This document shows positions 4,535-5,020 of a DNA stretch of 64,000 bases, piece after piece (within the stretch, counting starts at the first letter, position 1; every line of letters begins with the position of its first letter). This stretch comes from Acinetobacter sp. MB5 (GTDB lineage: Bacteria > Pseudomonadota > Gammaproteobacteria > Pseudomonadales > Moraxellaceae), in NCBI RefSeq assembly GCF_003261585.1, contig NZ_POVU01000002.1, positions 310,001 to 374,000 of the forward strand. The letters are read 5' to 3'. The position numbers and the translations under genes were made by a program. The notes beneath the pieces are model-generated. The model made no database searches. It had not been told where the DNA came from and saw nothing but the letters and a program-made list of their open reading frames with translations.

Positions 4535-5020
4535 TGTTGTGTTTACCAGTAAGTGTTCTGTGCAAACAAGTGTATTTGATTGTAACAGGAAAAGTATGAA
4601 TGCCGAGCTTTTTAACAAGCTTGACTTAAAAAATCAAGTCAAATTGTTTCGAGAATAATCAAAAAAAAATTAATTTTTTTTTGAACTATTGTCTCTTGAC
4701 ATACATAAACCATTGAATAACATTAATTTTTAATAGAGATCAAAAAATGATCAATTTGTTTCTAAGCCTTAATCAACGGACACTTCCCCCTGTCAAGGGT
4801 GTATTTATCCACAATTTTATCCACAGCTTTTGTGGAAAACTAACAATAGGTAGAAAATTCACCAATTCCAGAATCAGATGACGTATTTTTACACTTTTTA
4901 ATGATTTTGGTCGTTGATCACAATCTGAAAAAATATGTGAATAAATTTGTATGCACAGATGCGAAGTACCCTCGAATCAGCTAAAATTGCGCGATATTTT
5001 TTCCAAGAGTTTGTCGGTCT
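4535..5020. other. 486-base A+T-rich spacer with a DnaA-box cluster
   Basis: No gene is seen. The spacer holds two perfect DnaA boxes TTATCCACA at 4805-4813 and 4817-4825, a reverse-strand TTTTCCACA at 4831-4839 and a reverse-strand TTATTCACA at 4936-4944, all fitting TTWTNCACA. It also has three GATC sites, the inverted repeat TTGACTT/AAGTCAA at 4621-4642, and a long A/T palindrome around 4659-4683. It separates divergent genes. The boxes may regulate ttcA, titrate DnaA, or form an accessory initiation region. dnaA, dnaN and rpmH are not nearby. Confidence 0.6.

Follow-up and report, generated by a model that had tools for sequence, protein, structure and literature searches.

What is the role of a cluster of DnaA boxes in a spacer that lies away from dnaA? 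The window, i.e., the whole stretch of 64,000 nucleotides from Acinetobacter sp. MB5 analysed here, contains a gene-free spacer of 486 bases (4535-5020) between two divergent genes. The left-hand neighbour is a lytic-transglycosylase-like gene with an SLT domain (PF01464; 3716..4534, − strand). On the right, 180 bp away from the core described below, lies a gene of the PP-loop family (PF01171; 5021..5926, + strand), which we, like the initial annotation, take to be ttcA. The initial annotation had placed four DnaA boxes of the form TTWTNCACA in this spacer and had suggested a DnaA-titrating or regulatory locus or an accessory origin. The four matches are present at 4805 (+), 4817 (+), 4831 (−), and 4936 (−), with positions and strands as claimed. 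We propose that the spacer element is most probably a DARS-type DnaA-reactivating site, with its biochemistry predicted. The site and its architecture are established by sequence, from which the mechanism (binding, nucleotide exchange, and cell-cycle timing) is inferred.

Three of the boxes form a compact core at 4805-4839 that reads TTATCCACA-3 bp-TTATCCACA-5 bp-TGTGGAAAA. Box III (4805..4813, + strand) is a perfect TTATCCACA in the window; most congeners retain just its ..ATCCACA part, and the CCACA end is found in 31 of 32 aligned Acinetobacter loci. Box II (4817..4825, + strand) follows 3 bp past box III and is an exact TTATCCACA in all 32. Box I (4831..4839) reads TTTTCCACA on the − strand and stands head-to-head with box II across a 5 bp gap; it has at most one mismatch to TTWTNCACA in 32/32 loci and is exact in 17. 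The box II-5 bp-box I pair is thus kept in 32/32 loci and box III in 31/32. The mean top-base fraction over these same-genus loci is 0.927 for the three-box core vs 0.682 for the 432 other spacer columns. A place for a fourth box lies 1 bp beyond box I (4841..4849, − strand), where 26/32 loci have an exact TTWTNCACA that the window's genome has lost. The fourth box of the initial annotation (4936..4944, − strand) is unconserved and lies outside the element: it occurs at the same place (within 10 bases) in one of the 32 loci, which is the window's genome itself, and six other loci have some TTWTNCACA match between core and ttcA, but at different places. The cluster of four is therefore to be read as a conserved core of three, and the check in relatives that had been recommended was passed by the core and failed by the fourth box.

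The number of boxes is less informative. The window holds 19 TTWTNCACA matches, where 13.6 would be expected, and shuffling reaches as many in 9 of 100 cases; as this is no clear excess over the shuffles, box counting alone was dropped as evidence. The whole genome (3.67 Mb, 63 contigs) contains 35 perfect TTATCCACA vs 13 of the reversed pattern. The above-chance signal is the conservation of the core, not the box number. An Rfam search returned nothing at E-values up to 1. A perfect A/T palindrome, TCAAAAAAAAATTAATTTTTTTTTGA, is also present in the spacer (4659-4684), and some congeners have an opposite-strand match to it.

The 32 aligned loci are L185, L188, and 30 loci from BLAST, among them that of the window's genome. 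A BLAST search with the spacer against 58 genomes matched 40: the window's genome itself, all but one of the 36 congeners (35), and 4 of the 21 genomes from other families, where the match is confined to the box core. Of the five congeners outside the alignment, three (G012, G020, and G026) match over the core, and the core was not seen by BLAST in two of the 37 genus genomes (G019, which matches only near ttcA, and G031, which gave no match at all). In named genomes, the 11 best TtcA loci are all from Acinetobacter and 90-95% identical, the next best being 77%. The core is present without mismatch to the search pattern in 10 of these 11; the eleventh (L296) has merely 185 bases ahead of its match. 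In all 10 named loci with the core, an IHF match lies between −103 and −105 (0-2 mismatches) and a Fis match at −72 (0-1 mismatches), counted from the CACA of box III.

These two sites extend the core to a larger module. We scanned with the IHF and Fis consensus sequences as printed in PMC4245941, and the sites given here are sequence matches. The IHF consensus TAANNNNTTGATW (TAAACCATTGAAT) matches at 4706..4718 (+ strand) with one mismatch in the window, at −104 from the box III CACA. A match with at most one mismatch is found at −103/−104 in 31/32 genus loci, 20 of them with 0 mismatches, and conservation is higher at the specified bases of the site (0.92) than at its N positions (0.59). The Fis consensus GNNYANNNNNTRNNC (GATCAAAAAATGATC) is located at 4738..4752, 72 bases ahead of the box III CACA, and 30/32 loci have a match with 0 mismatches, all 30 at −72. 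Other aligned bins reach at most 16/32 (IHF) and 18/32 (Fis). Applied to a known case, E. coli DARS2, the scan gave two IHF matches 3 bp apart, consistent with the sites IBS1 and IBS2 described there (PMC4245941). Closer to the core, a conserved CTGTCAA (4790..4796) lies 14-20 bases ahead of the box III CACA. TGTCAA is present in 32/32 Acinetobacter loci (TTGTCAA in 24/32) and also in a genus of the same family (g24), at a different locus. This short motif could be a −35 (TTGACA) of a leftward promoter.

The distances within the module hardly vary, whereas those from the core to the genes do, with 172-220 to ttcA (once 999) and 262-367 to the SLT gene. The single value of 999 bp is from G025 (L047), in which an IS-like transposase sequence in two frames lies between core and ttcA. 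In G032 (L185), neither ttcA nor the SLT gene accompanies the module, which has IHF at −103 (1 mismatch) and Fis at −72 (1 mismatch); this genome is 90% complete, and the contig with its module may be misbinned. Relatives carry the module elsewhere, e.g., beside genes read as recA or uvrB. Because G032, G025, and these relatives have the module in other settings, we do not consider it tied to ttcA or the SLT gene. As a candidate for a general partner, ttcA was rejected, as the core occurs in 4 of 69 non-Acinetobacter ttcA loci (fetched stretches).

Beyond the genus, the core pattern (≤ 2 mismatches) is found in 264/293 genomes and 109/118 genera of the order, which is Pseudomonadales by inference; a reversed control pattern gave 2 matches in all. 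The boxes were also searched without a set gap. TTATCCACA followed by TGTGGANAA within 0-24 bases occurs at 60 distinct sites in 43 of 95 genomes, with rows reading one palindrome on both strands merged. The gap is exactly 5 bp at 48/60 sites; the remaining 12 are spread over seven gaps, and one of them is the box III-I pair of the spacer itself. CACA is present at 3 bp at 32/32 sites (35 rows, of which 3 restated a site with another CACA).

The flanking sites recur as well. The 71 non-Acinetobacter core loci scanned are a small part of the order-wide pattern matches and include some close relatives; 72 had been entered, and L233 was dropped for more than 3 mismatches in the scanned part. In 46 loci, an IHF match (≤ 1 mismatch) falls within −106 to −101, and a Fis match (0 mismatches) falls within −72 to −69 in 38 and within −73 to −70 in 36. 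Both sites are present in 26 loci and at least one of them in 58. By comparison, 200 mononucleotide shuffles gave means of 0.4 (IHF, −106 to −101) and 0.2 (Fis, −73 to −70) with maxima of 3, and other position bins in the same 71 loci reach at most 7 (IHF) and 3 (Fis). Of the 26 loci with both, 24 show a Fis-IHF offset of 31-33. IHF-positive loci cover ten families, and as some come from close relatives, not all are independent. Near the expected place, an IHF match with at most 1 mismatch is absent from 25/71 loci and an exact Fis match from 33/71. Among loci checked apart from the 71, L249 has an exact Fis match and an IHF match with 2 mismatches, and L252 and L253 are without IHF or exact Fis. 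Three Methylophaga MAG records, reached via ttcA, have the core together with IHF (0-1 mismatches) and Fis (0-1 mismatches) at module distances.

These data lead us to suggest, with somewhat better than even confidence, a second DARS architecture, in which IHF (−103), Fis (−71), and the DnaA core form a rigid module of ~135 bp that occurs order-wide and in Methylophaga MAGs, at loci that differ by genus. DnaA recharging has been described chiefly in E. coli-like bacteria and probably has a wider distribution. If this is true, recharging would be a general control in these bacteria, and the layout of E. coli DARS2 would be the version of one lineage. Two arrangements with additional cores were observed during these searches. 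Downstream of ttcA, two Methylophaga MAG loci (L334 and L346) have a pair of DARS-like cores separated by ~400 bp, of which the first has IHF and Fis at module distances, and one genome of the order has four DARS-like cores in 0.75 kb (G054:C17:22440-23181).

Acinetobacter has a second compact core. In the window's genome, it is located at G000:C22:113747-113776 (L251), between Usp and O-methyltransferase genes whose 3′ ends face each other. Its box I is TGCGGATAA or TGAGGATAA, and synteny is kept in the 36 congeneric loci examined. L277 and L281 were dropped from 31 loci, and L372 and L378-L381 from 11 further stretches, each time for lack of flanking genes. As the search pattern already included boxes II and I, independent observations are limited to the third box and synteny. 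The third box, 3 bp from box II, has 1 mismatch to TTWTNCACA in 21 loci, 2 in 8, and 3 in 7. At module distances, IHF is found in 0/36 and Fis in 1/36 loci, and the second-core pattern had no match in 4/60 genomes. This core would be a DARS1-like partner of the spacer element. Two further observations concern other parts of these genomes. A third core-like box pair at G000:C1:29041-29070 (L246) has 2 mismatches to the pattern and no IHF or Fis match at module distances. The palindromic TTATCCACAAAAAATGTGGATAA is present on non-main contigs (G009 C2, C3, and C5, and G002:C10), which perhaps reflects plasmid replication origins.

On the chromosome, the first core lies at 22-33% of chromosome length from dnaA in 11/11 Acinetobacter genomes measured, and the second core at 32-44% in 10 genomes with confirmed synteny (positions for G003 and G009 were taken on their largest contig). 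Relative to oriC, the E. coli sites lie at 33% (DARS1) and 21% (DARS2). Order-wide, the 26 core sites measured in 15 genomes lie at 5-47% from dnaA, none of them within 5%, with genome sizes rounded. For this count, 7 of 22 genomes were left out: G073, G084, and G213 had no match at 1 mismatch, G085, G165, and G210 had core and dnaA on different contigs, and G321 consisted of ten contigs. A mid-arm position was rejected as a general mark of DARS, as it fits Acinetobacter but not the order, and because of the range of 5-47% it was not used as proof.

Several factors predicted to act in trans are encoded in the genome. DnaA shares 48% identity with its E. coli counterpart, and R227, D269, R281, R285, and L290, counted along the alignment, are kept. 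These residues are tied to DARS activity or ADP release (PMC5742627 and other literature). A gene for IHF-alpha is present, as is a Fis gene (58% identical over 73 residues) and one for a DnaA-domain protein of 247 aa, which is Hda-like by size.

From these components, a mechanism can be proposed. ADP-DnaA left after a round of initiation would bind boxes I and II head-to-head via its AAA+ domains, and box III, plus the fourth box where present, would stabilise the DnaA complex. Bending by IHF and contact with Fis, both from the box III side, would then strain the complex so that ADP leaves. The resulting apo-DnaA would take up ATP and be competent again for oriC. In E. coli DARS2, the dependence on IHF and Fis has been reported to link recharging to cell cycle and growth phase; the same dependence would likewise couple recharging to both in Acinetobacter.

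Other explanations for the element have to be weighed against a DARS-type site. In a promoter of the SLT gene or ttcA regulated by DnaA, IHF, and Fis, DnaA bound beside the −35 would switch the genes with the replication cycle. The position of the core in a divergent spacer fits such a promoter, as do TGTCAA, part of TTGACA on the − strand, which adjoins the core in 32/32 loci, and a 10-of-12 promoter match on the + strand at 4696-4723 that overlaps the IHF site. However, promoter-like sites are not in excess (2 vs 2.7 in shuffles), the module adjoins other genes in G032 and other genera, in G025 an IS-like element parts the module from ttcA, and the second core of Acinetobacter sits between converging gene ends. 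We thus regard a promoter as unlikely. Still less probable is a titration cluster, in which high-affinity boxes merely soak up DnaA and delay initiation. Two perfect boxes and a third within 35 bp would suit this purpose, but titration requires affinity and number, not a fixed geometry. Since mere titration needs no head-to-head 5-bp arrangement with IHF and Fis at fixed distances, DARS is favoured. Of the proposal of a DnaA-titrating or regulatory locus, the DnaA-binding regulatory site is retained and titration is disfavoured on account of the DARS geometry and the IHF/Fis distances.

We give very little weight to a site of the datA type, at which the hydrolysis of DnaA-bound ATP would be stimulated (DDAH). 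DnaA boxes with an IHF consensus site are common to both, but in the spacer no IHF site lies between DnaA boxes: IHF is outside the core, and no TTWTNCACA match is found beyond it. The best local alignment score to the core is also lower for the datA region (28) than for DARS1 (38) and DARS2 (34). An accessory chromosomal replication origin is the least credible of these readings, to the point of being almost negligible. Like the spacer, oriC carries DnaA boxes with IHF/Fis sites and A/T-rich palindromes. However, the window shows neither a dnaA neighbourhood nor a sign change of GC skew, which keeps a single sign throughout in 4-kb steps. The oriC of this genome, with five perfect boxes within 295 bases (C24:5915-6209), is on another contig, flanked by genes read as rnpA/yidC on one side and by dnaA, dnaN, and recF on the other. 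This confirms the initial annotation on the absence of the dnaA region and speaks against its accessory origin.

The DARS-type reading has consequences beyond this locus. The titles and abstracts searched contained nothing on DARS in Acinetobacter or Pseudomonas and nothing on how these bacteria regenerate ATP-DnaA; an earlier mention of a core in these genera is possible. To our knowledge, the layout with IHF and Fis on the box III side has not been described. A sequence rule that picks out candidate cores in 264/293 genomes of the order makes the question of ATP-DnaA regeneration directly testable, and the differing side and spacing of IHF and Fis are a natural experiment on how the two proteins drive nucleotide release.

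In E. coli, DARS1 and DARS2 have three boxes in common with equal spacing and a reversed box I, and a striking property of DARS sites is the head-to-head contact between the DnaA molecules bound to boxes I and II (PMC5742627). Gamma-proteobacteria related to E. coli have been reported to retain the DARS2 core along with its IHF/Fis sites (PMC4245941), and a DARS figure legend from 2021 names Shigella, Erwinia, Yersinia, Photorhabdus, Rahnella, Vibrio, and Shewanella (PMC8682772). MG1655 DARS1 reads box III-3 bp-TTATCCACA-5 bp-reversed box I with no mismatch to our search pattern. MG1655 DARS2 shows the same layout, its boxes III and I being weaker, and carries TTTTTCACA 1 bp past box I.

The spacer element has the sequence features of a DARS: three boxes with box I opposite, spacings of 3 and 5 bp, a location away from oriC, and a DnaA with the relevant residues. 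It resembles DARS1 (bioD-uvrB) in core geometry. DARS1 is compact, as is the second Acinetobacter core, and has no IHF match (≤ 1 mismatch) within ~320 bases, whereas the spacer element has IHF and Fis consensus sites. With DARS2 (upstream of mutH), it shares the III-3-II-5-I arrangement with reversed box I, a site away from oriC, IHF and Fis consensus matches near the core at a conserved distance, and, in 26/32 congeners though not in the window's genome, the further box 1 bp past box I. The neighbouring genes are different. The layout is a variant of that in E. coli DARS2, with IHF and Fis on the other side of the core and at a shorter distance. In Acinetobacter, IHF (−104) and Fis (−72) both flank box III, Fis being the nearer of the two to the core, whereas the IHF pair of E. 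coli is ~185 bp off beyond box I, and one exact Fis match lies between pair and core. At the module distances, the best IHF and Fis matches in E. coli DARS1 and DARS2 have 2 mismatches each. The intergenic datA likewise combines DnaA boxes with an IHF site, but it places IHF between the boxes (PMC5742627). Unlike the spacer element, datA has no comparable head-to-head pair, and its predicted effect on DnaA is the opposite.
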